Below are positions 2,676-44,181 of a DNA stretch of 64,000 bases, in pieces. The notes beneath the pieces were generated by a model. The model did no database searches. It was not told the DNA's origin and worked only from the letters and a program-made list of their open reading frames with translations. Position 1 is the stretch's first letter; every line of letters begins with the position of its first letter. The stretch lies in NCBI RefSeq assembly GCF_009765705.1, contig NZ_LMUX01000009.1:241269-305268 (forward strand), written 5' to 3'. This stretch comes from Burkholderia sp. L27(2015). GTDB taxonomy: Bacteria > Pseudomonadota > Gammaproteobacteria > Burkholderiales > Burkholderiaceae. Both the position numbers and the translations under genes were made by a program.

Positions 2676-5354
2676 ATGCGAAAACAGTCAAGCGAGCGAC
2701 AACCGTGCAATCTAGGGCCAAGCCAATCTGCCGAACGACGTACCCACCGGGCCAACTCCATTGACCTAGCACGTGACCCCGATAGCACGCTGATCGATTG
2801 GATCGACGAGCAAGGTAGGCGTCAACCGGAGGAGGCGGCGCTGATCGGCGCAGGGGACTCGTTGAGCTATGCAGCGCTGGCAGCGCGCACGACGCAACTG
2901 GCGGCGACACTACTGGCCGCCGGTGTCGCTCGGCAAGACCGTGTCGGCGTGCTGCTCGAGCCCGGCGCAGATTTGGTGGCGAGTCTGCTCGCCATCATGC
3001 GCATCGGTGCGATCTATGTGCCCCTGCATCTGGAATGGCCGCGCAGCCGGCTATCTGACATCGCCGCGCAGGTCGGCTTCAAGACGGTACTTACGAGCAC
3101 TGAGCTGGCCGCCCCCGCTGCTGCGTTGTGCCCGCAGTTCCTGGTGCTTGAGCACATCGGCGGGGTTTCGCCTCCTGTGCATGACGCGATCGACAGCCGC
3201 GCGCGCCCGGATGACATCGCCTACATCTTGTTCACGTCGGGCACAACGGGCCAGCCCAAGGGCATACCGATCCAGCATCGCGGCCTGCTCAATTTGATCG
3301 CTTCGACACAAGAGCGCTATCGCTTGTCGGCACAGGACCGGGTCCTGTTCTGGACCGCCAGCTCGTTCGATGTATCGCTGCTCGATATATGTTGGCCGCT
3401 GGCCTGCGGCGCGCACGTTGTGTTGTGGCCGCCTGCCGCGGCAAAACAGCCCGATACGGCGATCGACGTGATCGACGCCTACGGCGTGACCGTTTTTCAG
3501 ACCGTCCCGGTCATGCTCGACGCGATGTGCGACGCGCGCCGGCGCAAGCCCCTGGACCGGAGCCTGCTCAGGTTGATCATTTGCGGCGCGGCTGTGTTGC
3601 GCCGCGCCGTGCGGGACCGTGCGCTCGCCGCCTTCGGATGCCGGCTGGCCAACCACTACGGCCCCACCGAAGTGGCAGTCGATGCGCTGTGGTTCGACTG
3701 TGCTGAGTCGTTTGAGGGCGAAATGGTGCCGATCGGCAAGCCCTTATCCAACGTCCATGTATTTGTGCTCGACCCGGATGACGAGCCCCTGCCGATCGGC
3801 GTAACCGGCAGTATCTGCATCGCCTCACCCGGTCTCAGTCCGGGTTATTGGGGTGCGCCCGAGCTCACCGAGGCAGCCTTCTTCCGCAAGGTTTTTGCAC
3901 CGGACTGCGCGCCGCTGCGCTTATACCGCACGGGCGACTTCGGTAAGCTCGACGCGGATGGCGTAATGCATTTTGCGGGCCGTGAGGACAATCAGGTGAA
4001 GTTGCACGGCAATCGCATCGAGCTGGGCGATATCGAAAGTGCGCTATTGCGGCACCCGGCCGTGGCGCAAGCCGCGGTGCTGCTGCAGCCGCAAGCGGGC
4101 GGCGAAGGCAGCCTCAAAGCGGTGGTCGAATTGCGCGATCGCGCGGTCAATCGCTTCGAGGTGCGCGACAAGGTCTATCGACAGTGGACTTTGGCGCAGC
4201 AGCCCTGGCTGCGCCAGCACATGAACTTGATTCACCACGACACGTGGCCCAGCTGTTTCGAGGGTGGTGTCGCCGCAGCCCGATACTGGGAAAAAGTGTA
4301 TGCGCAATTTCCTGCCTATCAGTATTGCCTGCTCGACTCGACGGACAACGTTGCGTGCGTGGGCAATGGCGTGCCCTTGTTCTGGGACGGCCGAAGCGCG
4401 ACCGTGCCCGCGGGCTGGGATGCGGGTGTCGAGCTGGCGTTCCGCCAGCTCGCTGCCGGGATCGCACCGAATACCGTTTTGGCTCTCGCGGGGATCGTCG
4501 CCGGCCCTTACCAGGGGAGTGGGCTGAGCAACACGCTCGTCGAAAGTTTCAGGGCGCTGGCCAAGATGCATGGATTCGATCAGTTCCTCGGGCCGGTACG
4601 GCCCGTGGGCATGTCCGAACAATCCGACATGGACGTGCATGCTTGGGCCCAGGCACGCGATGAGCGTGGCGAACCGCTGGATTTCTGGCTGCGCGTGAAT
4701 CAACGGCTAGGCGCCAGGATCCTCGGCGTGGCGGACCACTCGCAATTGGTGCAAGGAACGCTGAAGCAATGGCGGCGCTGGACCGGTGTCAGCTTTGCTG
4801 CATCGGGATCGTATGCGCTGCCCGGCATGCTGCAACCGGTCGAGGTCGACCTGGCGGGTGATTGCGCGCGCTATTACGATCCGTCGATCTGGGTTGGTCA
4901 CTACGGATTGCTCGACGCGAGCTGCGGCATCGACCGCCACTACGGAGTCGACGATCTGCGCGAACATTTGAGCGCTTGCTTGCCGGCCTATATGTTGCCG
5001 GACGAATTGGCTATCGTTTCAGCGCTACCGCTCAACGAAAACGGCAAGGTCGACTTTGCGCAACTCGGGCGCCGCGCACTCGCTGACGTGGCGTGCGGTG
5101 CGAAGGCATGCGATCCGGCACAAATGCAATTGGTCGATATCTGGGAGAAGACCTTGCAGCAGAGCGGGATCGGCATAGACGACGATTTTTTCCTGCTCGG
5201 CGGACACTCGTTGAAAGTGATCGAAATGCTGGCGCGAGTCGAGCAGTGCTTTGGCCGTAAGGTGCGGTTAAGGGATTTCTATCGTCAGCCCACGATTTAT
5301 CACCTTGAACGGCTGATTGCCGCCTGCGAGCCGCAGGCGACACCACTTGTTTGA
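2676..5354 (+). CDS. Single-module NRPS-like protein: adenylation domain interrupted by a GNAT-like domain, plus carrier domain
   Basis: Start chosen at ATG 2676 after AGGAG (2666-2670), giving 892 residues. Adenylation cores are visible: A3 LFTSGTTGQPKG (~185), A5 NHYGPTE (~325), A7 YRTGD (~416), A8 GREDNQVKLHGNRIELGDIE (~434-453), A9 LPAYMLP (~768) and A10 NENGKVDF (~787). A carrier domain follows, FFLLGGHSLK, with the phosphopantetheine serine near residue 845. A8 and A9 are normally ~65 residues apart; here ~315 separate them. The extra ~250 residues (about 510-745; WEKVYAQFPAYQYCLLD, GPYQGSGLSNTLVESF, VRPVGMSEQ) look like a family of stand-alone actinobacterial GNAT acetyltransferases. 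There is no condensation or thioesterase domain. It probably activates one amino or hydroxy acid, loads it on its own carrier, and may acylate it. The substrate is not predicted. Confidence 0.8.
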   Translation: MRKQSSERQPCNLGPSQSAERRTHRANSIDLARDPDSTLIDWIDEQGRRQPEEAALIGAGDSLSYAALAARTTQLAATLLAAGVARQDRVGVLLEPGADLVASLLAIMRIGAIYVPLHLEWPRSRLSDIAAQVGFKTVLTSTELAAPAAALCPQFLVLEHIGGVSPPVHDAIDSRARPDDIAYILFTSGTTGQPKGIPIQHRGLLNLIASTQERYRLSAQDRVLFWTASSFDVSLLDICWPLACGAHVVLWPPAAAKQPDTAIDVIDAYGVTVFQTVPVMLDAMCDARRRKPLDRSLLRLIICGAAVLRRAVRDRALAAFGCRLANHYGPTEVAVDALWFDCAESFEGEMVPIGKPLSNVHVFVLDPDDEPLPIGVTGSICIASPGLSPGYWGAPELTEAAFFRKVFAPDCAPLRLYRTGDFGKLDADGVMHFAGREDNQVKLHGNRIELGDIESALLRHPAVAQAAVLLQPQAGGEGSLKAVVELRDRAVNRFEVRDKVYRQWTLAQQPWLRQHMNLIHHDTWPSCFEGGVAAARYWEKVYAQFPAYQYCLLDSTDNVACVGNGVPLFWDGRSATVPAGWDAGVELAFRQLAAGIAPNTVLALAGIVAGPYQGSGLSNTLVESFRALAKMHGFDQFLGPVRPVGMSEQSDMDVHAWAQARDERGEPLDFWLRVNQRLGARILGVADHSQLVQGTLKQWRRWTGVSFAASGSYALPGMLQPVEVDLAGDCARYYDPSIWVGHYGLLDASCGIDRHYGVDDLREHLSACLPAYMLPDELAIVSALPLNENGKVDFAQLGRRALADVACGAKACDPAQMQLVDIWEKTLQQSGIGIDDDFFLLGGHSLKVIEMLARVEQCFGRKVRLRDFYRQPTIYHLERLIAACEPQATPLV

Positions 5355-5448: not shown

Positions 5449-6216
5449 ATGAACTCAACCCCGTGGTTGGTACGCAGCGATTGCCCGGCGCCTCGCCTGC
5501 GGCTGTATTGCTTTTCTTACGCCGGCGGTAGTGCCGCCGATTTCATGCCATGGCAGTCGGCGTTGGCCCCCGACATTGAAGTCTGCGCGATTCAGTTGCC
5601 TGGACGAGGTGCGCGTCTGGACGAGCCAACGGTCGCATCGATGGCGCAACTGCTCGAGACCCTGGCGCCTGTGATTGCGCGCGATGGCGAGCAGCCGTTC
5701 GCGTTCTTCGGTCACAGCCTGGGTGCACTGGTCGCGTTCGAGGTGGCACGCTATGCCATGCATCGTTCGCTGCCGCAGCCTTCGCGCTTGCTTGTGTCGG
5801 GATGCGCGGCGCCGCAGCGTTACCACTCGCTCGAGCAATTGCATCGCCTCAGCGACGATGGGCTAGTCGATGCGCTGAGGCGTCTTAACGGCACGCCGGC
5901 TGAATTGCTAGAACACCGCGAACTAATGGAGCTGATACTACCGGCGCTGCGTGCCGACCTTACCTTGGCGGAAACCTATGCGTATCGTCCCGGCCCCAGT
6001 TTGCCGGTGCCGATCACCGTGCTGTCAGGCACACTCGATCTGCATACTCAGCTGGAACCTGTGGACGCATGGCATGAGCAAACATGTGTCGAGTGCCGTA
6101 CTTACGCGTTCGAAGGCGATCATTTTTTTATCAAGGCGCATTTTCACGCGGTGATCGCATGTATCCACGCGGAGCTGACTGGCGCCCTCGCTGCGTCAAG
6201 CGCGGTTAAGCGCTAG
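5449..6216 (+). CDS. Type II thioesterase (alpha/beta hydrolase)
   Basis: 255 residues from ATG 5449, preceded by AATAGGA. The N-terminus LYCFSYAGGSAADF carries the oxyanion-hole motif, FFGHSLGALVAFEVAR holds the nucleophile serine, and GDHFFIKAHF near the C-terminus supplies the catalytic histidine. Type II thioesterases are free-standing proteins that hydrolyse mis-primed or stalled acyl groups from carrier domains; they can also release products. It lies 94 bases downstream of the adenylation/carrier gene and 4 bases upstream of the PPTase. Because the synthetase has no thioesterase domain, this enzyme may be the release step for the whole islet. Confidence 0.85.
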   Translation: MNSTPWLVRSDCPAPRLRLYCFSYAGGSAADFMPWQSALAPDIEVCAIQLPGRGARLDEPTVASMAQLLETLAPVIARDGEQPFAFFGHSLGALVAFEVARYAMHRSLPQPSRLLVSGCAAPQRYHSLEQLHRLSDDGLVDALRRLNGTPAELLEHRELMELILPALRADLTLAETYAYRPGPSLPVPITVLSGTLDLHTQLEPVDAWHEQTCVECRTYAFEGDHFFIKAHFHAVIACIHAELTGALAASSAVKR

Positions 6217-6220
6217 CGCG

Positions 6221-7018
6221 TTGCCGGTCCGATCGAGCCGCATCGTGGCGAACCCTGATCAGCGCTTGGTGCTGTCGAGCGAGCGTATCGATATCTGGCT
6301 GCTCGAGGTTGACGACGTGCACGACACATCGTCATTGGACTCCTATCGGGCGCTGCTGGCGCCGCAGGAGCTTGCGCTGATGGGGCGCTTCAAGCTTGTC
6401 CAAGCGGGTCACCGCTATTTGCTTGCGCGTGCTTTGGTGCGCGTCGTGCTGTCACGCTACGCGCCGATACGCCCGCAGGACTGGCGGTTCGAGCACAATC
6501 GCTACGGACGTCCATTGATCGTGAACACGCACGACATCGCACGGCGCATTTCATTTAACGTGTCCCACACGGACGGGGTGATTATGTTGGGTGTGGTTGG
6601 CGACCGCGCCCTAGGCGTCGATGTGGAATACATGAAATGCCCGGCGCCCATAGAAATCGCAGAGCATTGTTTTTCATCGAAGGAAATTACGGCCTTGCAT
6701 CGCTTGTCGCCCGCGCAGCAGCCCCGGCGGTCTTTTGAGTTATGGACTTTGAAGGAAAGTTATATCAAGGCCCGGGGGATGGGGCTGTCGATTGCGCCGG
6801 ACCAGTTCAGCTTTGAATGGGACGCCGCGCAGGGCGTGACACTCGATGTTGGTATTGATGTCGACGCAACCGGGTTGCGGTGGGTATTCTGGCGCTTGCA
6901 GCCGTCCCCCGGTCACTTTGCAGCGGTCTGCACGGCCGTGGCGGCCGACACCGACACGGTGCCGACACTATGCGCACGCAGGATGGTCGGGCTAGCGCAT
7001 GAATGCTTGAGGTATTGA
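6221..7018 (+). CDS. 4'-phosphopantetheinyl transferase, Sfp type
   Basis: Converts apo carrier proteins to the holo form by moving phosphopantetheine from CoA to serine. Conserved blocks are present: RFEHNRYGRPLI, FNVSHTDGVIMLGV, the magnesium-binding GVDVEY, and FELWTLKESYIKARGMGL (W..KE..K.). Length (~265) fits Sfp/Gsp enzymes. The start is uncertain: TTG at 6221 lies 4 bases after the thioesterase stop, and GTG at 6245 is an in-frame alternative; neither has a strong ribosome site. As last gene of the islet it makes the synthetase self-sufficient for activation, which is typical of transferable NRPS cassettes. Confidence 0.85.
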   Translation: MPVRSSRIVANPDQRLVLSSERIDIWLLEVDDVHDTSSLDSYRALLAPQELALMGRFKLVQAGHRYLLARALVRVVLSRYAPIRPQDWRFEHNRYGRPLIVNTHDIARRISFNVSHTDGVIMLGVVGDRALGVDVEYMKCPAPIEIAEHCFSSKEITALHRLSPAQQPRRSFELWTLKESYIKARGMGLSIAPDQFSFEWDAAQGVTLDVGIDVDATGLRWVFWRLQPSPGHFAAVCTAVAADTDTVPTLCARRMVGLAHECLRY

Positions 7019-8393: not shown

Positions 8394-9008
8394 CTAACGT
8401 GAGCGGCGAAGCACAAGAGCGCCGCCATAGCCGATCAATGCAGTCCCACTCAGACGGTTGAACACCTTTCTTGCTCTCGCTTGCTTGAGCAACTGCCCCA
8501 TACGTGCTGCGATAGAACCATAGATGTTTAAAGAAACAAACGATATCGACATAAATGTGAAAACGAGCACGGATATATCGGCCAAAGAAGGATCCATTTT
8601 TGGAACAAACAGCGGGAGTACTGTTCCGAAGAACAAAAGCGGTTTGGGATTTGTTATCGCGTTGGTGAATGCAAGACGAAATGCGTGAGTGGGAACAATC
8701 TCGCGGTAACCCTTCTCCTCGCTTTTGTCATCAACCCAAAGTTTTATACCCAGCCATATCAAGTAGCCGCCGCCGACCAAACGCAAAACCTGCATGGCCA
8801 TCGCGGATTTGACGATGAATTGGCTGAGCCCGGCGGTTACAAGTAACCCGATGATACCCAGCGCCAGGACGTTACCGACAGCAAACGAAACGATCGGACC
8901 CCGCCCCAACCGAGCACCGGTATTCATAATGAGTAGGTTTGTTGGCCCGGGCGTTACGATATTCAACGCCGCGACGGCGGAAAATGCGGTCCAATGTTCA
9001 AAGGTCAC
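8394..9008 (-). CDS. LysE/RhtB family amino-acid exporter
   Basis: 204 residues. The start is a GTG preceded by CAGGAG at a normal distance; a longer frame back to 9044 has no such site. The N-terminus FSAVAALNIVTPGPTNLLIM carries the LysE/RhtB hallmark PGP motif after the first membrane segment; about six hydrophobic segments follow, including ALGIIGLLVTAGLSQF, LRLVGGGYLIWLGIKLW and ISVLVFTFMSISFVSLNIYG. Such proteins export amino acids or related metabolites across the inner membrane. It is first from the left of a minus-strand block with two EamA transporters and a PAS-LuxR regulator. Base composition is AT-richer than the flanking core genes. Confidence 0.85.
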   Translation of the reverse strand: MTFEHWTAFSAVAALNIVTPGPTNLLIMNTGARLGRGPIVSFAVGNVLALGIIGLLVTAGLSQFIVKSAMAMQVLRLVGGGYLIWLGIKLWVDDKSEEKGYREIVPTHAFRLAFTNAITNPKPLLFFGTVLPLFVPKMDPSLADISVLVFTFMSISFVSLNIYGSIAARMGQLLKQARARKVFNRLSGTALIGYGGALVLRRSR

Positions 9009-9048
9009 CCTTTTCTCCTGAGGTTGGAAGCCGTGGGGCACCAACGTA

Positions 9049-10011
9049 TTACGCGCAAACGCGAACGCTAATTGACTTGAATACAGTACCGTAGATCGTG
9101 AATAGAACGACTACAAGGCAGCCAAGCGCTGAAGGAACGGACCATGCGATGCGATCATCGAAACCTTGAACAAGGTAGGTAAGCACCGGTCCTAACGAAA
9201 GAAGCACTGAGACGGCAAAGGGAGTAGAAAGCAAAATTCCGCGCTGCAGAAGCCAGAGAGGCAGCGCGACACCAAAGATCATGGCAATGGCCATGTGATT
9301 CGCTTGGTCAAGCGACGCCAAAGACAGACCAGGCCCGCTCATCGCGAGAATCGCTGCGATCGGTATCAGAAGGTGAAAGCGATGCGACATGATGCGTGTC
9401 GCGTTCCAGCCTTTGTCTCCAAGCTGCTTAGTCGCAATGACGGTCATGGCTTGAGAGATGCCGCCAACTATTGCTGCGATCAGTCCGACAAGGGACTCGT
9501 ACGGGTTCGTCGTCTTGATGCCCGATAAACCGGCCATTGATGCCCAGACCAACACGGCGGTACCGAGAAGAGTTCCCGCGGCTGCTACGTAGGCATGGCT
9601 GGGCAACTTTTGTTGTCGGACCACGCGCTCCAATACGATGACGCTTAGCGGTCCGAAGCCGCACACAATTGCCGTGACAATCGCGGGTTCAATGTATCGC
9701 AGGGCAATGAAATAGCCGATCCAGCTCAATGCGGTCATCGCGTTCATTGTAAAGAGCGCACCAGCATCGGCACGCTTGATGGTCAAAGCGCCAGTACCCA
9801 TCGTGAAAATCAGGCGAGCCATGAACACAATACTGGTCGCGAGGAAACCCCAGAAAAGAAAGGTGTATGGGTGCAGACTTTGCAACAATCTGCCGGAGAA
9901 CACTGCGTTCGCATTCGCCATGAGAATAAAGGCGACGACGTACGCAGTTCCTGAACTGGGCGATGGGCCGACGAGCGTCCGATTGGTTGAACTACTTTCA
10001 AATACACTCAT
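9049..10011 (-). CDS. EamA/DMT family transporter
   Basis: 320 residues with about ten hydrophobic segments in two halves, the drug/metabolite transporter layout. Recognisable pieces are the helix after GRLLQSLHPYTFLFWGF, ALSWIGYFIALRYIEPAIV and SVLLSLGPVLTYLVQGF. The start overlaps the stop of the upstream EamA gene by four bases, so the two are coupled and may form a heterodimeric or paired exporter. The substrate is unknown; with a LysE-type gene downstream, amino acids or small metabolites are plausible. AT-richer than the chromosome core. Confidence 0.8.
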   Translation of the reverse strand: MSVFESSSTNRTLVGPSPSSGTAYVVAFILMANANAVFSGRLLQSLHPYTFLFWGFLATSIVFMARLIFTMGTGALTIKRADAGALFTMNAMTALSWIGYFIALRYIEPAIVTAIVCGFGPLSVIVLERVVRQQKLPSHAYVAAAGTLLGTAVLVWASMAGLSGIKTTNPYESLVGLIAAIVGGISQAMTVIATKQLGDKGWNATRIMSHRFHLLIPIAAILAMSGPGLSLASLDQANHMAIAMIFGVALPLWLLQRGILLSTPFAVSVLLSLGPVLTYLVQGFDDRIAWSVPSALGCLVVVLFTIYGTVFKSISVRVCA

Positions 10012-10946
10012 TTTGAGCCCGCAGGAAGATTAGCGATAGGATCGGACGAGCTTAGCCGGCTTGTATTATCGTGACCCGGTCGAAACGCATTAAAGATGTT
10101 GCGTCCACAGGCATTGACGAGAACGCCCAATATGATGAAAATTGCGGCAAAAATTTTTAGTAATCCTACTGGTTCGTTAAATATTAAATGTGAAAATAGA
10201 ATGCTGAAAACTGGAACCAAAAGATAAGTCGGCGCAGATACGGAGAGGGCATACTTGCTTAGAAGCATGGTCCAAATGCCATACGCAAAGAGCGTCGCGA
10301 CGTAGGCTATAAATAGCAGCGTGGCGATGGACAACGGATGCAGATTTTCAGCGATTCCTTCGAGGGGACTCTTGTCAAAAATAACGAAGCGAATCGCGAA
10401 CATGGTCAATGCCGAGGCGGGGGCAGACCAGATAATGAACAAGAAAGGCTGATCGGTTCCCGACTTTTTGATCGCAGTGTTAGCAACCACCCAAAGCGCG
10501 GTGCCTAACAGCGCGAAAGCCATCCCGCGCGGCGTGACACTTCCATCCGTGACAGCAGCGATCAGTCCTAATCCGACCAGCGCCAGCAAAAAACCTGATG
10601 CGTTGAATATGGTGATCCTTTCTTTGAACAGAAAAAGCCCGACAATAACAGTCATAAATGCGCCCAACTGCAAAACAAGCGCAGAAACGCCCGCCGACAG
10701 ACCTGCGTGCATTCCAAGTAAAACAGACCACAAACCCAGGCTCATGGAAACGCCATAGAGCGCAACGTATTTGAACGAGCAAACGGGCTTCTTCGCAAAA
10801 AAAATCGCGGGAAAAGCGCAGAGGGAAAATCGTAATCCCGCCAAAAGGAGAGGGTCAAAAGAGCTCAGGCCCATCTTGATCGCGGAGTAATTAAGGCCAA
10901 ATATGCCGGTAATTAAGAGTGCAACTAGTACGTGACTAATTCTCAT
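10008..10946 (-). CDS. EamA/DMT family transporter
   Basis: 312 residues, ten predicted membrane segments in two EamA repeats: IFGLNYSAIKMGLSSFDPLL with the EamA-type NYSAIK start, LGLWSVLLGMHAGLSAG, then AYVATLFAYGIWTMLLSKY and VPVFSILFSHLIFNEPVG in the second half. The NEPVG-type motif before the last helix is common in RhaT/EamA exporters. It ends in a four-base overlap with the next EamA gene. The PAS-LuxR regulator ends 10 bases upstream, so all four minus-strand genes may be one transcript. Confidence 0.8.
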   Translation of the reverse strand: MRISHVLVALLITGIFGLNYSAIKMGLSSFDPLLLAGLRFSLCAFPAIFFAKKPVCSFKYVALYGVSMSLGLWSVLLGMHAGLSAGVSALVLQLGAFMTVIVGLFLFKERITIFNASGFLLALVGLGLIAAVTDGSVTPRGMAFALLGTALWVVANTAIKKSGTDQPFLFIIWSAPASALTMFAIRFVIFDKSPLEGIAENLHPLSIATLLFIAYVATLFAYGIWTMLLSKYALSVSAPTYLLVPVFSILFSHLIFNEPVGLLKIFAAIFIILGVLVNACGRNIFNAFRPGHDNTSRLSSSDPIANLPAGSK

Positions 10947-10956
10947 GCAGTCCTAA

Positions 10957-11685
10957 CTATTCAACGTTCAACGAAGCTACCAACTTTGGATCAAATATGC
11001 CTTGCGGGAGCACGTGGATCAATCCCATCTCGGTTGCTTTATCCCTCAGCTCAGCGGTTGTGCTGACCTCAAATTTCTCACGTAGGGCTGTCATATGTTT
11101 GAACACGGTACGAGGAGTGATATCAAGCAGGTTTGCGATAATCTTCGTTCGTTTGACTCTCAACGAATAAAACAATACTTCATGCTCACGCTTACTAATA
11201 TCAACTCCAATGTGGTCCGTTCCTATGAGGTAGGTACCATTATCGAGCAGTAGTTTACCGTTCGTGGCAATAGGGATCTTTTGTAGAAAACTTCCCAATT
11301 TGAAAGTGGCCTCGGAAGTCACGTCCTCGCCAGTAACGAGTATTCCGTCAATATCGCCACGCTGATTCTGAAGAGGAGTTTTGCGAAACTTATAGGCTTT
11401 AAATTTCCCCTGTGCATCGGGATGGATTCCAAGCAGACTAAGGGGTTTTCTGGATTTTATGACCTTGTTATCTTGCTCATGAACCAGGGCCGCGCATTCG
11501 GAGGATCGCGCCGGCATGTCATAAGCGGTTCGACCTATGACATCAAACGGATGTTTCAATTCAACTATTTTTGCGTACTCGGCATTCGCGTAGGTAAATA
11601 TCGAATTAACGTCTTTATATGCAGAAGAGCAAGGTAAATTATCAATCAAATTTTTGAGTATCAACGCATCTATCATTTTTTCCAC
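10957..11685 (-). CDS. PAS domain plus LuxR-type helix-turn-helix regulator
   Basis: 242 residues. The N-terminal half looks like a PAS sensor (SAYKDVNSIFTYANAEYAKI, a GRTAYDM motif, then YKFRKTPLQNQRGDIDGIL and GEDVT). The C-terminal ~65 residues are a GerE/LuxR helix-turn-helix (LSKRE-like SKREHEVLFYS, AANLL-like IANLLDITPRTVFKHM, LREKF). There is no receiver domain, so the signal is probably a small ligand or redox state sensed directly by PAS. It lies just upstream of the EamA pair and LysE gene and is the likely controller of that export block. Low GC relative to neighbours. Confidence 0.75.
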   Translation of the reverse strand: MEKMIDALILKNLIDNLPCSSAYKDVNSIFTYANAEYAKIVELKHPFDVIGRTAYDMPARSSECAALVHEQDNKVIKSRKPLSLLGIHPDAQGKFKAYKFRKTPLQNQRGDIDGILVTGEDVTSEATFKLGSFLQKIPIATNGKLLLDNGTYLIGTDHIGVDISKREHEVLFYSLRVKRTKIIANLLDITPRTVFKHMTALREKFEVSTTAELRDKATEMGLIHVLPQGIFDPKLVASLNVE

Positions 11686-34056: not shown

Positions 34057-34986
34057 TTACTCCAATTGACGCCCCGAGATCTTTCCTATTGCCATCAGCG
34101 GGTCGAACTGGAAATCGTCCATCGAGAAATGCGACGACTCACGAAGACCAAACGCCGAAATTTCAGAAGAGTCGATTTGGTATCGAACCAATTTGAAACC
34201 ATCGTCGCGTGAACCAATTTGATAAAACTTGGGCCCTTCCGCCAAATCGGCCAATAACTTCACAATCGTCGTGATGATCGAAACGTCGCACCGCAGGCCG
34301 AAATGCACGGAGTCGATTCGAAAGGGTCTGTCCTGCGGGCCGTTTGTCTTAGACACCACGCGCCACTCCTTTTCGTACTTCCACTGTGGCGCCTTTGCAA
34401 AAAAATATTGATCGAAAATCTTCGCCTTGATAGAGGACGAGCGCCGAAGCAGCCATTCAATCAAGTCGCTTACTTTTAAGTATCGGCTCGATTGGTAGTT
34501 CACCGGGCCGAGCATGTCGCATCTATGATCCTCAGTCCTGTACTCGATGCAGATCCCTCTGTGTTCGTTCGCATAATGGCTCCACATCAGGGGATTGTCC
34601 CAATGCGACGCCAGAGACAAGACACCGTGCTCCTTAAATCTTGTCTTAACGAAAGCCTCTATGTCACGAACCAGAAATCTCGTGTAAATCTGTGATCCAT
34701 TCCCTCCGTCGTCATGCGTACCGCCATCCTCGGTCGCGCCGTATCGATAGTGGTTTATCGCATCGATGGCTTTTTCCTTTCCCATTTGCTTGAGAGCAAT
34801 GCTCTTCCAAAGGCGTTCGACATCTTTCCACTCAACGTCGACAAACACGGTCGGGTTGCAGTCGAAGGGGTCGTTGAACGTTGACGGCTTTGCGAAAAAG
34901 ACTTCGGCTTCACTGACCATTCGTAGCGTATAGGTTCCAAATGATCGATATTTGAAGAGGCTGCGAGGCAGGCGTTTCGGGTTCAT
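34057..34986 (-). CDS. DUF2971 family protein, defence-island associated
   Basis: 309 residues from ATG 34986. Typical DUF2971 features: LFKYRSFGTYTLRMV near the N-terminus, FFAKPSTFNDPFDCNP, the core SHWDNPLMWSHYANEHRGIC, IEYR, and YEKEWRVV. The family is widespread near phage-defence genes and mobile elements but its activity is not firmly known. Here it lies 250 bases downstream of the NACHT ATPase gene on the same strand, so it may be an accessory gene of that system or independent. GC is a little lower than in glmS. Confidence 0.75.
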   Translation of the reverse strand: MNPKRLPRSLFKYRSFGTYTLRMVSEAEVFFAKPSTFNDPFDCNPTVFVDVEWKDVERLWKSIALKQMGKEKAIDAINHYRYGATEDGGTHDDGGNGSQIYTRFLVRDIEAFVKTRFKEHGVLSLASHWDNPLMWSHYANEHRGICIEYRTEDHRCDMLGPVNYQSSRYLKVSDLIEWLLRRSSSIKAKIFDQYFFAKAPQWKYEKEWRVVSKTNGPQDRPFRIDSVHFGLRCDVSIITTIVKLLADLAEGPKFYQIGSRDDGFKLVRYQIDSSEISAFGLRESSHFSMDDFQFDPLMAIGKISGRQLE

Positions 34987-35236
34987 TTGACTAGGTTGAG
35001 TAATTAGTAAATATGCGGACGGCCGCCAGAGGTGGCAATGCCAGCCACTTTTTGTAGATCGTGGCGAAACGATACGAACGCGGATCGTGACCAGCAACTT
35101 GCCATCCGCGCAGTGGGATCAAACATTCGGATGTGAGACCGGCGACGTGATGCGAATGTCTGGCATGTACGTCGTCGCCGTCCTAGGAGCCCGAGATTAC
35201 GCATATCAACACGAACGTGAATCCTGCCGCGGCCGA

Positions 35237-38200
35237 CTAATATGTACAGTCAATGATGACCGGGCTCAGCAGTGTTGTTTTAGACGACGCCTGCTCGCAA
35301 GCACTAGCAACAAGTTCGTAGCACTCGTCAAGCGTTCCGCCAGGTACCAACCTTCGCGTCTTTTGTTTCCGCCCATCCTTATCCGCCCACCTATCGCACA
35401 GGAACCACATGACGACATATACGCCTTCGTTCGATCCGAGCGCACGCATATAGTTGTCTCGCAACTGCGTGGTCGGGGACGAATAAAGATCATCGTTCCA
35501 GCATCCCTTGACTTCAATCACCAGTCGCACGGTCTGCCTGGACTCACTTACTGTACTGACTGACACCTCGACAAGAATGTCAGTTCTCTCCCCAACGCCA
35601 GTCGGATTGTGCGCTCTAACCTGAACTTCGCGATTGACAATCGCGCCTCGAGGCGAGAGGCGATCATTTAACTGGGTCGCTAGCCAGTCACATAGCCTCG
35701 GTTCGTGCTTCGGGCAATTTGGCTTCTCGTCCCATAAAAAGTAGACATCTGGATGCGACGATTTCGCTGAAATCTTTTTGGCGATATGACCTAGCTCGTC
35801 AAGCACGGCAACACGCAGCTCCGCCTCACTTCGAACTATCCTTCCGCCGCCAATTCCTAGGGCCGAGATGGTCTCGGCTTCGTCATACGGGATCCAGGAA
35901 TCGCGGGCGGCTTTCATGTGTGCGTCATGCATCAGAGATCCTATCCAGCGCTTCTCTGGATGCCGCTCTGCAATGCGTTCGAGGGCCAAAATGCTCTCTG
36001 GCGTCGCTTCTTCTCGCAAGGCATAGAGGCACGCGTTTCTGAAGTCTTGTACGTAGTGCCGCCAGTTGAGAATGCCGGCGAGCGGAACATCTTGCCCAGA
36101 CGGATAGGCGGTCTCCAAAGTTTCAAAAATTTCCTCCGTGATTCTTTCATTCACGAGCAATAAAGGCACGGATTGGCCAGAAAACGAAACTTGCATCTGA
36201 GCAGCCAGTGCTGCCAATGAAGCTGGATCTGCTTGCAGGCGCGGCCAAACAGCGTCGAGAAATTTACGCGGCTCTTGCTGTGCTAGTAGGGCCGTGCATT
36301 TAACGGCAAACTGAGTCGCAAGGTTTGGCAGTGACTGGATGCGGTCGAGCACGAAACGTACTGCTGACTGACTGCCCAGGGTCAACAAAAAATCCGCTAG
36401 TGCCGAGAACGCAGTCTCGCCGCCCACTGTGGGAAGAAGGGCTTCCAGCCTCGCCCGTAGAGCGTCCGGCATCACAGTTTTGGTAAAGTCGGGGAGATGC
36501 GGCAGCTCGTGCTCGATGTAACGTTGGCAGACCTCGATCAGCACCGTTAGAACATTGTTCTGGTCAAGAACAAGAGCGATGGCCAACATCTCGTCGAGGA
36601 CTGCGCGCGGTTGTTCGTCGGGCGCGTACCGCGCGACCGCGCGGGTCCACTTAAGCAGCAGCGCCTGAAATTCTGGGGACGCGCGCAAACTGGACTCGTG
36701 AAGCAGTACCAGCGCTGCGACGCCGGCATCCTCAACGCTATTCGATTGATTGGGTGCGAGATCGTGCCGCGCCGGTTTATTCTCGCGAAGATATGAGGTG
36801 GCAAGATAGATCAGTCGATTACGAGTTGTTTCGTCGAGTTTTGCCCAAAGCGCCGCTCGGGTCACTTGGCCGGAAATTGGATAGTACCCGTGGAAGTCGC
36901 CGTCGTGACGAAGATAGGACAGTATGTTGAGCCATTCCCATGTGTTGCCCGCTTCCGCGTTTGTCAACGCTGTGAGCATTAAGTCCAGCGATTGTTGGCG
37001 TGCCGAAGTTTCCGGTAGCGGCCTTTCCGATTTACGCTGAAGCGCGAACATCTCTCGCTGACTGCTGGCGTAATCCGAGTCGAGCACAACCGGCTCGACG
37101 TAACGGGCGGCTAGCTCTACAAGTAGTTCATCTCGTGCGGCCACGTCGACGCCGGCTGATTCAAGCACCCACTCTCGAGCAATCGGGTTGCTAGGGAGAT
37201 ACCACACGATCATATTGGCGAGGATTTTTTGTACGAGCGGTGACCGGTCTTCCCGGCTGTACGACTCAATTAAATGCGTTACGTCCGATTCAATGAGAAA
37301 ACCCGTTCCGTACAGCAACGTTCCAGCAACGACATGAGGCTCTCCATCCGCAGCACGTACGATTGAATCAAACAGGCGTAATCGACGCTCTGGAGCATTA
37401 AGAAGTTGTAGCCCCTCGTCAAATCCTCGGTTGCTGCGCGAGGTGGACAATCGATGGTGATTCGATAGCGCCCGCCAAGCAACTTTACCGAGCTCATCCC
37501 AGTGCTCGTCGGTCGACATGACTGCAAGTGCGGTCTTGCTGAACATGTGGAAAACGAAATCGTCCCACGTATGCTCAAGATGCTCGGTGCGAAGCTGTAA
37601 GTCGAGCCATGCCAGAAGCCCCACTATGTCGCTTGGCGCTAACTCTCTATTCTCTAGCGTGCGGAGGGCGAGCGCGTATGAGCCGGTCAGATTCCATTTC
37701 TTCCTCGGGCGAACCGATGCCATCAAGTTGCCGGTTGCGATTCCCAGGTCGATGGCACATTGGAGAGCGATCCCTTTCAGTTCGTCATCAACGTCTTCAG
37801 GCTGATCGTTAAAGAATAGCGGAACGAGAGCCTGTTTTTGGGACTCTGATCCAGCTTCTTGAATAGCATGCCCGGCGCGCTGTCGCACGATGCAGTCATC
37901 AGTGACGTCGAGAGCAATGGCAGTTAGTGCATGAAGTTGATGCACTAGTTTGCAGGCAGACGCCGCGTCAGCGGCAAATTCCCTCACTGCATTGTCACGG
38001 CTTACGCCGCTTAGAACCTTTTCGAGTTGCCCGAGTAGCTCGGGGTGGGCCAGCTTTCCGTATGAGCGAACAAGCTTGTAGTCGTGAATCGGATACCGAC
38101 GTTGCTCAATTAACTGCTCCAACGAGTTATAGATCCTCCCGACCTGCGAAGAGTCCGATAGAGACACGCTGCTATCAAACACCAGCAATGGCTCTTTTGC

Positions 38201-39436
38201 GAGAACCGTCTCCAGAACCTGCTGGCTTTTTTGCCCCAGCCAGGCGGCCAATTCCCGGAGTTGAGGCACAAGTCGCTGGGATCCGTCCGGTAAGGACAAT
38301 AGATCCATGACCTTTGCGACAGGGAGCGTGAGAGATGCGATGAAGTGGGCCGCGAGAAATTCGGCGTACGTCCGGTGTGCGAATGTGTACAGATCATCGC
38401 CTCGTGGTACGAAAAGCCCGGTCTGCAAAACCTCACGGAATTGCTCTCTGCTTGGTTGCCATTTTCTCGCGCCCAAAACGAGTGGAATACTTGTCAGTTG
38501 GTCAGTACCTAACAATAAATTGCTTGCTACAGACGCCGCAGTTCCATCCCAATTTATGTCGGCCTTATTGGTCAAAAGCGAAAAAGCAGCGATTAGCCCC
38601 GCGAGCTGCAGACGAGACCGGGGGTCTGGTATGGCAAGATTGTTATCTTGTCGTCGTCGCTCGCTTTCCGTTAGTGCCGCTAGGCAGCCATTCTCGTAGA
38701 GCGCCCATCGACTGGTGGAGAAAGTCGCTCCTTGCGTGAACTGTGACATTAGGAAGCCAAGTCCCAACGGTTGTAGCGACAGGTAATGAGCCCCTGCATG
38801 GTCCAAGCCATCGAAGAAAGCGGCCTCGTCGATCCCCTGTTCTTGTAACCGCACCTTAATCTGTTCACGCGAATAGGGAGCGATTTCGAAGACCGCGACT
38901 GCTTGGTCACCAAAGGCTTTCCAGTGATTGCCCAGCGTGTCCTGAAGAGAAAGTGGCCACGCGGGCGTTCGGCAAGCTATGACTACGCGCAGTGCGTTAG
39001 GTGAGACTTCGCAGATGACGTCTTCTATAACGGTTTCGGCCCGTTTCATATTCACCCGGCACTCGTCGAGAGCATCGAGAAAGATGATTGTGGGCGTACC
39101 CTGAGTGAGGCAATCATGCAGTAGAAGGCGCAGCGCGCCAGCAAGATACGAGGCGTCGGCGTGTCTCCCGAGGTCGATGTAACGCACTACGCGCTCATCG
39201 GCGGCTTCTGCCGCCTTCCTGAGAGTATCGAGTTCGAACGACTTACCTGAGCCGGGCTCGCCGAGCAAGACGATAACTTCACCACACTCGGAGAGTTCGG
39301 CGGTCGTTTTCAGGCCTGGGTTGTAATCTGCGCGCCATTTCTTAGTTGCGAGGGCGGTATAGCCATACTCGTCGACCTGCACCCCTTTGCCGCGAGGCAT
39401 CCAATACCGACCCGATTCGATGGAGTTATCGTTCAT
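35237..39436 (-). CDS. NACHT/STAND-type ATPase with helical repeats and C-terminal nuclease-like domain
   Basis: 1399 residues. Residues ~40-370 are a NACHT-like module: P-loop GEPGSGKS (59-66), Walker B IIFLDALDE (117-125), sensor region VIACRTPAW, and FAHRTYAEFLAAHF near 350-360, which matches the winged-helix end of NACHT proteins. About 370-1180 is long alpha-helical repeat sequence, probably the ligand sensor. At ~1284-1308 TDILVEVS and VIEVKGCWN form a D...ExK pattern like PD-(D/E)xK nucleases. This layout suggests an anti-phage sensor that oligomerises on ligand binding and activates a nuclease. The start overlaps the 119-residue gene by 11 bases. Not a named Avs type that I can recognise; the effector is C-terminal. 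Confidence 0.75.
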   Translation of the reverse strand: MNDNSIESGRYWMPRGKGVQVDEYGYTALATKKWRADYNPGLKTTAELSECGEVIVLLGEPGSGKSFELDTLRKAAEAADERVVRYIDLGRHADASYLAGALRLLLHDCLTQGTPTIIFLDALDECRVNMKRAETVIEDVICEVSPNALRVVIACRTPAWPLSLQDTLGNHWKAFGDQAVAVFEIAPYSREQIKVRLQEQGIDEAAFFDGLDHAGAHYLSLQPLGLGFLMSQFTQGATFSTSRWALYENGCLAALTESERRRQDNNLAIPDPRSRLQLAGLIAAFSLLTNKADINWDGTAASVASNLLLGTDQLTSIPLVLGARKWQPSREQFREVLQTGLFVPRGDDLYTFAHRTYAEFLAAHFIASLTLPVAKVMDLLSLPDGSQRLVPQLRELAAWLGQKSQQVLETVLAKEPLLVFDSSVSLSDSSQVGRIYNSLEQLIEQRRYPIHDYKLVRSYGKLAHPELLGQLEKVLSGVSRDNAVREFAADAASACKLVHQLHALTAIALDVTDDCIVRQRAGHAIQEAGSESQKQALVPLFFNDQPEDVDDELKGIALQCAIDLGIATGNLMASVRPRKKWNLTGSYALALRTLENRELAPSDIVGLLAWLDLQLRTEHLEHTWDDFVFHMFSKTALAVMSTDEHWDELGKVAWRALSNHHRLSTSRSNRGFDEGLQLLNAPERRLRLFDSIVRAADGEPHVVAGTLLYGTGFLIESDVTHLIESYSREDRSPLVQKILANMIVWYLPSNPIAREWVLESAGVDVAARDELLVELAARYVEPVVLDSDYASSQREMFALQRKSERPLPETSARQQSLDLMLTALTNAEAGNTWEWLNILSYLRHDGDFHGYYPISGQVTRAALWAKLDETTRNRLIYLATSYLRENKPARHDLAPNQSNSVEDAGVAALVLLHESSLRASPEFQALLLKWTRAVARYAPDEQPRAVLDEMLAIALVLDQNNVLTVLIEVCQRYIEHELPHLPDFTKTVMPDALRARLEALLPTVGGETAFSALADFLLTLGSQSAVRFVLDRIQSLPNLATQFAVKCTALLAQQEPRKFLDAVWPRLQADPASLAALAAQMQVSFSGQSVPLLLVNERITEEIFETLETAYPSGQDVPLAGILNWRHYVQDFRNACLYALREEATPESILALERIAERHPEKRWIGSLMHDAHMKAARDSWIPYDEAETISALGIGGGRIVRSEAELRVAVLDELGHIAKKISAKSSHPDVYFLWDEKPNCPKHEPRLCDWLATQLNDRLSPRGAIVNREVQVRAHNPTGVGERTDILVEVSVSTVSESRQTVRLVIEVKGCWNDDLYSSPTTQLRDNYMRALGSNEGVYVVMWFLCDRWADKDGRKQKTRRLVPGGTLDECYELVASACEQASSKTTLLSPVIIDCTY

Positions 39437-41042: not shown

Positions 41043-42464
41043 TCATCGAGCCGGCGTGAGCACGGGCGTTACCGAACAGACGACGACCCGCTGGGCCCCG
41101 CGCGTGAGTGCCACATAGAGATTGGGGGCCGTCATAAGCTCCGGGTGCAGAATGACTGCAACGTCCGCTTCAAGCCCCTTGAGCAGCAGCGTGCTTCCGA
41201 CGGAACGACGTGCGAGGGGACGGCTCATGTGCCGGTTCCGCTCGCGGGTCTGAATCGCGGCGGCGTGCAGGGTGCAGGCACCTCCGGCAGCGGTTCGTAC
41301 CGCCGACACGCAGCATCGCAGTAGTTCTGGTCGGTATACGCGTATCCCATCTTGCTCTTCCAAGCTGTTTAGAACGTGCAAAGCTGCCGAGAGGCTGGGC
41401 ACGTCGGTGAAGGCCACAGCGGCTTCCTCTGCTGGCGTCGGAGCATTGCGAGCCCGACCCTGGCGAATGGTCTGAACGCGCCTAAGCAGGTTCGTCGCTC
41501 CGACACCTGTCATCACGCTTGCGGCAAAGTTGACCAATTGTTCGAGGGCGTTGCCTGCTGCCACGTCAAAACGGCGACCAAAGTTTGTCAGATCGTCGAG
41601 GTCCACTCGCTCGACTGCCGTTGCGCCTGGAGTCTGGCTTGCCACCTGAAACCGGCCTTGTGCGTTTCGAGCGTCACCGATGATCAGGACATTTCCATGC
41701 CGATCCGGGGCATTTGCACGAGCGGCGCCGAGCCGTTGTTGGATGGCGGTGGCCGGGTTCAGTTGCACCCACTGGACTTCAACGGGCGCGCCTCGAAGGT
41801 CTATCGACTGACCTGCCTGGAGATGCCCCCTTGCTGCTAGCAGCCAGTTGCCCAAGTTTTCTGTTCCTGCCCTGCGCCAGCGCCACGGGGTCTGCAACTG
41901 GCCAATTGCGGGGAACTGTGTTTGCACGTTCGCCTGCCAATCTACGAGCCGGTTTCCGGCGAACCCAAAGATGGCCTGCATTGGGTCGCCGAGCACGCAC
42001 GTCGGTAGCACAACAGCCGCCCAGTCGACGATGACGTGTTGGCTGAGGTTACAGTCCTGGTACTCGTCGACAAACAAGCGGGAATAGGTAGCACGCAGCG
42101 CATCATTCACGTGGCCAGCCTGGAGCAGTTGCCAGGCCGCGTTTCGGATCGCCGGGTAGTCCTGAGCGGGGTTGTCGAGGTCCAGGATGCGCGGGTCATG
42201 GCCGCTTCGACGCGGGAACTTACTAATGAGACGGATTGCAAATCCGTCAATGGTCGACAGCCTGTAGGCAGAATTTGGCACTCGCGCTCTTTGAAGGCGA
42301 GCACGCAGCGCACTAACGCCGGCATTCGTGTGCGTAAGGACGAGGACAGGCTTGGGACCTCCGTGGAGGCTGAGCGTGTCTGCGATAAGCTGTGTTTTCC
42401 CACAGCCGGCAGGGGCCGTTACCGAGCCTCGGTTGACCGCGAGCAGATCAATCTCAGGCGGCAT
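41043..42464 (-). CDS. gajB: Gabija protein GajB, UvrD/Rep-like helicase
   Basis: 473 residues. Superfamily 1 helicase motifs: P-loop TAPAGCGKTQ (17-24), motif Ia VLVLTHTNAGVSALRAR, motif II LFVDEYQDC (~134), motif III LGDPMQAIFGFAG (~159), motif V TLLLKGLEADVAVI and motif VI YVALTRGAQRVVV. It lacks the large insertions of full-size UvrD, which fits GajB (~490 residues). The start overlaps the end of the GajA gene by 11 bases. In Gabija, GajB senses or unwinds DNA and works in complex with the GajA nuclease during phage infection. Confidence 0.85.
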   Translation of the reverse strand: MPPEIDLLAVNRGSVTAPAGCGKTQLIADTLSLHGGPKPVLVLTHTNAGVSALRARLQRARVPNSAYRLSTIDGFAIRLISKFPRRSGHDPRILDLDNPAQDYPAIRNAAWQLLQAGHVNDALRATYSRLFVDEYQDCNLSQHVIVDWAAVVLPTCVLGDPMQAIFGFAGNRLVDWQANVQTQFPAIGQLQTPWRWRRAGTENLGNWLLAARGHLQAGQSIDLRGAPVEVQWVQLNPATAIQQRLGAARANAPDRHGNVLIIGDARNAQGRFQVASQTPGATAVERVDLDDLTNFGRRFDVAAGNALEQLVNFAASVMTGVGATNLLRRVQTIRQGRARNAPTPAEEAAVAFTDVPSLSAALHVLNSLEEQDGIRVYRPELLRCCVSAVRTAAGGACTLHAAAIQTRERNRHMSRPLARRSVGSTLLLKGLEADVAVILHPELMTAPNLYVALTRGAQRVVVCSVTPVLTPAR

Positions 42465-44181
42465 GAGTCCACCTGCGAAGTTGCTCGACGACTGATCGAA
42501 AGCCCGCCTCAGCGGTCGCGAGGTTCGGTCCGACGATGTCTTTCGCCACTCCCTCGAATTTGGTCACGGACTTGAACCAACTGTTCTTCCCCTTTCGGGA
42601 GGCCAGGCCAAGAAGTGTCCGTGTTGCAGCCGAATGGCCGTCGAGGAGGCCCTCGGTCCAAACCGCATCGAGCGTCATATGTCCCTGCGACTGGGACTGG
42701 ATATGCGCGTTCACCAACGACTCTTCGACAAGGTCGACCGCGCGCTGCAGCAGCCCGCGGATGGCACCGTCGTCTAGGCTCAAAAACAGCTCGTCCTCCA
42801 GTGCCCGGCCTGGTCGCCATGTAAGGGCCATCCCGCCGGCGGCAACGAAGGCAGCAACTGATTCCTGCGCGGGCGCCCTGTCGGCATCGACTAGGACGAG
42901 CACCCGATAACCAAGCCCAAGGAGAGCCGCTCCTCGCGAGTAGCACTTGTCTGGGTCGCCGCCGCCGACGTTGACGTATGAGCCGCCATTGGCGAGGAAC
43001 GAGGGGAACCCTTGACTAATCCAATACTGGTCAAGCCCACGCGCAAATCCGACTTCACTCGCCCCTTCACAGACAATGACGGCCTTCGCCAGAAAGGCTT
43101 CTGGATCGGCCCGAATGGTACTCTGGACATCGTCGGCAACGCCTACCTGGTGCACTTGATGCTGGGTGCCCTGCGTTCTAACAACGAAGACTTGATTGCC
43201 TGAAAGCTCGCGAATCGCGACCGGCGAATGGGTGGTCATGAACACCTGCAGCGGCAACGCAGGGTCTTTCGCGCCTAAGGAATCAAGAAGACGAGCCAAG
43301 CGGTGTGGCTCAAGGCCGTGCTCCACTTCGTCGATCAAGGCGATGGTCGCCGCTTCCGCCGCGGCACGTTGAAGCCCTGCGATGAGCAGGCGGGCCGAGC
43401 CTGTGCCTAGCGACCGAAGAGGCACTCCGGCCTCGTTATGCAGGGCAATTGCCCCATCCCCGATGGAGACCGAGTGGGCATCCAGTAAGGCTTGAGCTGA
43501 CGCCCCTACAGGGACTCCGAGAGAGGTCGCAGTCGCGTTGACAACTCGCAGTGACTCTGCGAACTGAGCTCCCGCTTGGTTGCCGAAGTTGGCTCTGGCC
43601 TCGCGCGCTGCCCGCGCAAGCTCAATGCCCAAATTGGCTCGCTCGTCGGTAAGCCTGTTCAAGACTGAGCCACGCGTCCATGAGAGGTTCGTGTTTGCAA
43701 AGCTTCCAATCCGAGCAGGCGCGAGCGCGGTTCGATCTTTCCACGCAAGGCCTCGCTCTAGGCCTTGCTGCTCGGCACGCTCTGAGAACAGCGTCCAAGA
43801 CGGCTCAAGGTCGCTCGCGACCGTCAGTCGCAGCGTCAACACGGTCTCGATACCTGCGCCTGGTTCGTCCTCGACCATCCTCGTAGCAGCGTCGAACCCG
43901 CGCAAGAACTCGCCGTATGTGTCCAGATTCTTTAGCTCGTCAGGTAATGCACCAAGCGTCAGAGAGATTGCGATGGGCTGGCTGACATCCAGGCTAGAGA
44001 AGTCGGCGTCTCCGAAGGGGGCACTTCTGCGTGCTCCAAGGCAGAGGTCAATCGCATCCAGGATGCTGGACTTACCACCGTCTCCCGGACCGATGAGGCA
44101 GTTGATGCCAGCTGAAGGCGTCCAGTCCAGCGATTGGACGGAGCGGAAGTTCCTAATCTCGACTCTGCGAATACGTGTCAC
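42454..44181 (-). CDS. gajA: Gabija protein GajA, OLD-like ATPase/TOPRIM endonuclease
   Basis: 575 residues, GTG start at 44181 behind a G-rich ribosome site; known GajA is ~578. The N-terminus RIRRVEIRNFRSVQSLDW and P-loop GPGDGGKS (31-38) belong to the AAA15/OLD ATPases; LRSLGTGSARLLIAGLQ is the signature, IALIDEVEHGLEP (~279) Walker B and TTHSPVAIREL the H-loop. The C-terminal TOPRIM domain has the glutamate in VIVCEGASEVGF (~371) and the aspartates in LVLVDAD (~430). GajA cuts DNA when nucleotide levels fall during phage replication. Its overlap with a UvrD-like gene in this order identifies the Gabija system. Confidence 0.87.
   Translation of the reverse strand: MTRIRRVEIRNFRSVQSLDWTPSAGINCLIGPGDGGKSSILDAIDLCLGARRSAPFGDADFSSLDVSQPIAISLTLGALPDELKNLDTYGEFLRGFDAATRMVEDEPGAGIETVLTLRLTVASDLEPSWTLFSERAEQQGLERGLAWKDRTALAPARIGSFANTNLSWTRGSVLNRLTDERANLGIELARAAREARANFGNQAGAQFAESLRVVNATATSLGVPVGASAQALLDAHSVSIGDGAIALHNEAGVPLRSLGTGSARLLIAGLQRAAAEAATIALIDEVEHGLEPHRLARLLDSLGAKDPALPLQVFMTTHSPVAIRELSGNQVFVVRTQGTQHQVHQVGVADDVQSTIRADPEAFLAKAVIVCEGASEVGFARGLDQYWISQGFPSFLANGGSYVNVGGGDPDKCYSRGAALLGLGYRVLVLVDADRAPAQESVAAFVAAGGMALTWRPGRALEDELFLSLDDGAIRGLLQRAVDLVEESLVNAHIQSQSQGHMTLDAVWTEGLLDGHSAATRTLLGLASRKGKNSWFKSVTKFEGVAKDIVGPNLATAEAGFRSVVEQLRRWTHAA

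Follow-up and report, generated by a model that had tools for sequence, protein, structure and literature searches.

A predicted GNAT-fold domain inserted between motifs A8 and A9 of an adenylation domain in Burkholderia sp. L27(2015) and in a rare bacterial family of such fusions

The window analyzed here, a stretch of 64,000 nucleotides from Burkholderia sp. L27(2015), carries a gene for an NRPS-like protein, designated A[GNAT]-T, which is preceded by peptide ABC transporter genes and accompanied by genes for a type II thioesterase-like protein and a 4'-phosphopantetheinyl transferase (PPTase; Table 1). The ATG listed is likely the true start of the A[GNAT]-T gene. The thioesterase is 48% identical to those encoded in the clusters of Burkholderia glumae and the Burkholderiaceae genome G1097 described below. 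Shortly downstream of these three genes, at 8394-11685 on the reverse strand, are genes for a LysE-type exporter, two EamA transporters and a PAS-LuxR regulator, which could, as a matter of speculation, export or regulate an amino-acid-like product.

Table 1. Features of the A[GNAT]-T locus, in window coordinates.
Feature	Position	Strand	Basis
NRPS-like protein A[GNAT]-T, 892 aa	2676..5354	+	ORF open from 2454; ATG 2676 with GGAG upstream
Adenylation core, A3-A8 included	2778..4136	+	PF00501 2.4e-83, TIGR01733 1.3e-111
Inserted domain, predicted GNAT fold, 263 aa	4137..4925	+	AF2, Foldseek, profile match to CurA
GNAT motif A / CoA pyrophosphate loop QGSGLS	4512..4529 (±1-2 codons)	+	Aligned to CurA and other GNATs
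Family-invariant PVRP, Val at CurA Thr355 position	4593..4604	+	Family and CurA alignment
DFWLRVNQRLG, Arg at CurA Arg387 and Asn at CurA His389 position	4680..4712	+
Remainder of A C-terminal subdomain: A9 (LPAYMLPDE), A10 (NENGKVD)	4941..5070	+
Thiolation (T) domain, LGGHSL	5130..5318	+	PF00550 2.5e-12
Type II thioesterase-like protein, ATG 5449	5449..6216	+	PF00975 2.2e-48
4'-Phosphopantetheinyl transferase	6221..7018	+	PF01648 8.4e-18

The A[GNAT]-T gene encodes an adenylation (A) domain that is interrupted between A8 and A9 and followed by a carrier domain. The A motifs are complete on both sides of the interruption, with A3-A8 before it and A9-A10 after it. Numbered along the long ORF, the A domain spans residues ∼108-560, with A8 (GREDNQVKLHGNRIELGDIE) at ∼509-528 and A9 at ∼843; counted from the ATG, A8 falls at ∼435-454 and A9 at ∼769, so that the positions given in the initial annotation (∼434-453 and ∼768) are correct in that numbering. 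Matches to PF00501 and PF00550 are normal, and that to PF13193 (AMP-binding_C) is split in two, the better stretch (527-574) corresponding to profile positions 2-50 of 76. Between 'LKAVVELR' and 'VDDLREHLSACLPAYM' (VDDLREHL...LPAYM) lie ∼265 extra residues, close to the ∼250 first estimated; the insert had been located at 4180-4900, which is the right place although its extent is slightly wider (∼4137-4925). Chance is excluded as an explanation, since homologous inserts occupy the same A8-A9 point at six other loci (∼36-63% identity).

Structure prediction and profile comparison together indicate that the insert is a GNAT-fold domain, with the PKS GNAT-like decarboxylases as the closest branch of known structure. 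An AF2 model of the isolated insert (four sequences) reached a pLDDT of 87.2 and a pTM of 0.83, and all 50 PDB matches listed by Foldseek were GNAT-fold proteins (E-values from 3.5e-9 to ∼3e-4), the best among those listed being the SxtA decarboxylase (3.5e-9), CurA GNAT_L (5.8e-9) and the GphF GNAT-like decarboxylase (2.2e-6), with many N-acetyltransferases from ∼1e-5 on. A profile of the 13-member insert family matched CurA at 3.4e-7, and the alignment continued through the helix DPWLRxHxRLGA, the CurA counterpart of which is DPLLRFHQIHGA. Profile searches with individual sequences gave a mixed outcome: the window insert itself matched no Pfam model, although Acetyltransf_1 was matched by 6 of the 13 family members (best 3.1e-5), and NCBIfam returned a weak match (0.08) to a Pat-type acetyltransferase. 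The GNAT likeness read from the letters in the initial annotation, and the resemblance to a stand-alone GNAT family that it proposed, were thus borne out by the model and by the stand-alone homologs described below; the latter and the pTM of the isolated insert indicate an independent domain. The possibility that the extra residues are an enlarged A subdomain or a linker can be discarded, being ruled out by the AF2 GNAT model and the Foldseek matches as well as by the stand-alone homologs. The full-length A-GNAT-T model was poor (pTM 0.43), such that interfaces cannot be judged from it. A match of the four-sequence profile to 5ig9, an ATP-grasp ligase (3.2e-4), gained no support from the fold and was taken as chance.

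Residues of the insert were assigned to CurA positions from one profile alignment at low identity, in which the chain index plus 215 reproduces Arg387, His389 and Thr355. The candidate CoA pyrophosphate loop conforms to motif A, (Q/R)xxGx(G/A), with a terminal Ser rather than Gly or Ala, and most family members have Ser or Ala there. In CurA, Arg387 holds the 3'-phosphate of CoA, His389 and Thr355 form the proposed decarboxylation dyad, and His389 is equivalent to the general-acid Tyr of canonical GNATs; decarboxylation is drastically reduced in the H389A, H389N and T355V variants (PMC3701320). The Arg at the Arg387 position is invariant across the family, as is a Val at the Thr355 position. 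The α4 position of the general-acid Tyr is occupied by His in every relative and by Asn in the window insert (codon AAT at 4698-4700); among 34 conserved columns examined this is the single one at which the window differs from its family, the other 33 being kept. The dyad of CurA/MCD-type decarboxylases is therefore absent, with Val in place of Thr/Ser throughout the family and Asn in place of His in the window.

Mapping on GrsA showed Asp235 to be kept in all seven fused A domains (7/7), which indicates that an α-amino acid is loaded. Across the seven A domains the pocket follows the pattern D-[AV]-L-Q-I-[CGS]-H-V-D, and that of the window reads D-V-L-(Q/T)-I-C-H-V-D, its fourth position being alignment-dependent (T in the pairwise alignment). 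The substrate side chain is probably small and polar, judging from these residues, although the substrate itself is not reliably predictable as two pocket columns vary with the alignment.

The arrangement occurs in at least six further bacterial genomes from two phyla, Pseudomonadota and Bacillota. In addition to the window copy, fused inserts were found in Pseudomonas fontis (L001), a Tatlockia MAG (L002), Fictibacillus (L003), Pseudomonas G631, the B. glumae plasmid p81s2p and Burkholderiaceae G1097, making seven copies. Stand-alone homologs are present in a gammaproteobacterium, Bacillota, Streptomyces, rhizobial plasmids and two Burkholderiaceae. Those from Streptomyces, rhizobia, Burkholderiaceae and Bacillota are full-length counterparts with 26-34% identity to the window insert and share the PVRP and WLRxHxxxG motifs, but they are unfused, branch separately in the tree and are annotated as 'N-acetyltransferase' or 'hypothetical protein'. 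The fusion is rare: at the family level 4 of 399 genomes gave a match, two fused (the window's genome and G1097) and two stand-alone; at the class level there were two in 369, the window's genome with the fused form and the other with the stand-alone form; and in Pseudomonas two of 300, both fused. No relatives were found in the viral contigs searched, and no characterized member of the fused or stand-alone GNAT family was found.

In the tree, the fused inserts, seven in all, group together as one clade (support 100/99) apart from the stand-alone homologs, and the simplest reading of this topology is a single insertion of a stand-alone GNAT from which all seven would derive. Identity to the window copy is 36-63% for the insert and 40-57% for the A core, and against most relatives the insert value equals or exceeds that of the core. 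Conservation to the same degree as the A core indicates selection on the insert, which is probably functional in the family.

Going beyond the initial annotation, the relatives reveal a conserved clade with multi-gene clusters, and a C domain that is missing from the window copy. The fusion constitutes a terminal C-A[GNAT]-T module in P. fontis, B. glumae, G631 and G1097, and the relatives' terminal modules stop after the T domain, without a cis thioesterase. Three of these loci (P. fontis, G1097 and B. glumae) also have an adjoining C-A-T module and homologs of SbnA and SbnB (L-2,3-diaminopropionate synthesis); the latter carry these names in the B. glumae record, and for P. fontis and G1097 the assignment is by similarity. 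In G631 the corresponding neighbors are proposed from ORFs of matching size in the same order. In Tatlockia and Fictibacillus a similar C-A-T/C-A[GNAT]-T pair lies downstream of PKS parts. Further members of the B. glumae cluster are an SRPBCC protein, a 512-aa protein of no known family, a MATE exporter, an O-methyltransferase, a ParB_N protein (presumably SbnI-like) and a thioesterase. The whole forms a PKS-NRPS cluster with diaminopropionate genes (p81s2p locus L014, 7143-25606), and its 512-aa protein and a 227-aa protein, neither with a Pfam match, recur in P. fontis and G1097.

The setting in the window is much reduced. No relic of a C domain was detected by tblastn upstream of position 2676, unlike in the relatives, and a C-domain search of the window's genome yielded one weak match only. 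Searches of the same genome for SbnA returned distant PLP homologs only (33-35%), the 512-aa cluster marker was absent, and no second NRPS was found with the B. glumae module as query.

Taken over the family, the most likely activity of the insert, put forward tentatively, is CoA-dependent acylation of a side chain on the carrier. The A domain would activate an α-amino acid and load it onto the adjacent carrier, and the insert would bind an acyl-CoA and acylate the residue on the carrier at its side chain; the side chain is the expected acceptor because in the relatives the upstream C domain uses the α-amine. Consistent with such an activity are the GNAT fold, the CoA pyrophosphate loop, the invariant Arg at the Arg387 position, Asp235, the replacement of Thr355 by Val, the equal identity of insert and A core, the single fused clade and a stand-alone homolog found beside an NRPS in genome G1318. 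Against it, the closest solved structures are decarboxylases rather than N-acyltransferases, and the window copy has Asn at the His position. The initial proposal of a module that activates a building block and acylates it in one chain therefore stands as regards the A domain and the GNAT fold, but on these same two counts acyltransferase identity is not established. Acylation by the window copy is doubtful, given the Asn at the putative general-acid position.

The window insert may indeed be altered or inactive, and the possibility that it has become a catalytically inactive or structural remnant, within a gene set decaying from a larger cluster, deserves consideration even if it is somewhat unlikely; this possibility concerns the window copy only and so overlaps with those for the family. 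It would account for the change at the one otherwise invariant His and for the missing upstream C domain, SbnA and partner NRPS in a genome with a single weak C-domain-like match. It is less easily reconciled with the retention of the 33 other conserved positions, with the intact A, T, thioesterase and PPTase genes, and with an insert that is at least as similar to most relatives as the A core is.

That the insert is a GNAT-like decarboxylase of the CurA/SxtA/GphF/MCD type acting on a carrier-bound substrate is unlikely, even though the best fold and profile matches are to these enzymes, the likeness extends through DPWLRxHxRLGA, and the family, the window excepted, has His at the His389 position. 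The invariant Val stands where the dyad requires Thr/Ser, making classical CurA-type decarboxylation unlikely for the family as a whole, and both this substitution and the Asn of the window correspond to changes reported to cripple CurA (T355V and H389N; PMC3701320). Selection of an α-amino acid, as indicated by Asp235, rather than a malonyl-type substrate likewise makes malonyl-type decarboxylation unlikely.

Less probable still is a release or transfer catalyst that would hand over the (peptidyl) chain on the carrier to an amine or other acceptor, in the manner of the LuxI-type GNAT-fold synthases that use acyl-ACP. The terminal position of the relatives' modules, with no cis thioesterase after the T domain, would suit such a role, and phosphopantetheine can occupy the thioester tunnel of GNATs. 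However, a free thioesterase is encoded in several of the clusters as well as beside the window gene, the conserved Arg suits free CoA and not a carrier arm, and the stand-alone relative in G1318 comes after an NRPS with its own cis thioesterase. This stand-alone gene (L032, 7946-8692) lies between genes for an A-T-TE NRPS and a 523-aa protein on one side and an ABC transporter on the other, with a PPTase-like ORF nearby, an arrangement resembling an in-trans version of the fused form.

Returning to side-chain acylation, the fuller scenario is advanced with slightly more reserve: a stand-alone GNAT enzyme, captured once as an inserted domain, would acylate, or otherwise transform through CoA chemistry, a carrier-bound amino acid; the module would have passed between Pseudomonadota and Bacillota, forming the last unit of an uncharacterized PKS-NRPS pathway; and in the window's genome it would survive in a minimal, shortened form, as A[GNAT]-T plus a thioesterase and PPTase of its own, without C domain or partner modules and without peptide formation.

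The A8-A9 region is the site of most other A-domain inserts, for which reviews name methyltransferases, ketoreductases/reductases, oxidases and monooxygenases (PMC8949500, PMC8097286, PMC11355689). The coincidence with methyltransferase inserts pointed out at the outset is thus correct and extends to the other types. A GNAT insert is unnamed in these three reviews, with the census of Lundy 2020 (RSC Chem Biol) lying outside the comparison, and a full-text literature search for the two together brought up a single paper, in which GNAT and the interrupted A domain are separate subjects. Relative to the reviews compared, the GNAT insert is therefore a new variant among interrupted A domains, as had been supposed.

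Methyltransferase-interrupted A domains (TioS, KtzH, ColG) likewise have an A8-A9 insert, with the tailoring domain in the C-terminal subdomain and a carrier-bound amino acid as target, but their insert is a SAM methyltransferase whereas that of the window has a predicted GNAT fold. KR-, Ox- and FMO-interrupted A domains, including SolF of solanimycin, use the same insertion region for redox enzymes of unrelated fold, and those interrupted by a KR usually select keto acids. Solanimycin SolG, an NCBIfam match, was set aside as a relative, since the similarity is generic to A domains and the interrupted domain in that system is the FMO in SolF. CurA (2REE), SxtA (7UCI) and GphF (6MFC) share with the insert family the GNAT fold, carrier-adjacent action and the Arg and His positions; they sit in PKS loading modules rather than inside an A domain, and CurA has a Thr-His dyad where the family has Val and the window also Asn.

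The A8-A9 loop is a natural plug-in place for NRPS tailoring enzymes and has also been tried by engineers; if acylating, the GNAT insert would extend the list of inserts by acyl-CoA chemistry and offer a ready-made acylating module. The family points to an uncharacterized pathway, tied in several genomes to diaminopropionate genes, that occurs in Pseudomonas, Legionellales, Bacillota and Burkholderia, the last represented among others by the rice pathogen B. glumae.

Elsewhere in the window, PADLOC detected a Gabija defense pair on the reverse strand (41043-44181; GajA 42454-44181, 1.5e-238, and GajB 41043-42464, 1.1e-197). Near it on the same strand is a 1399-aa ORF with no Pfam or PADLOC match (35237-39436), adjoined by a gene for a PDC-S31 candidate defense protein (34057-35097, reverse strand; 2.2e-51), and an OLD-like ATPase/TOPRIM gene is located at 56106-57878.
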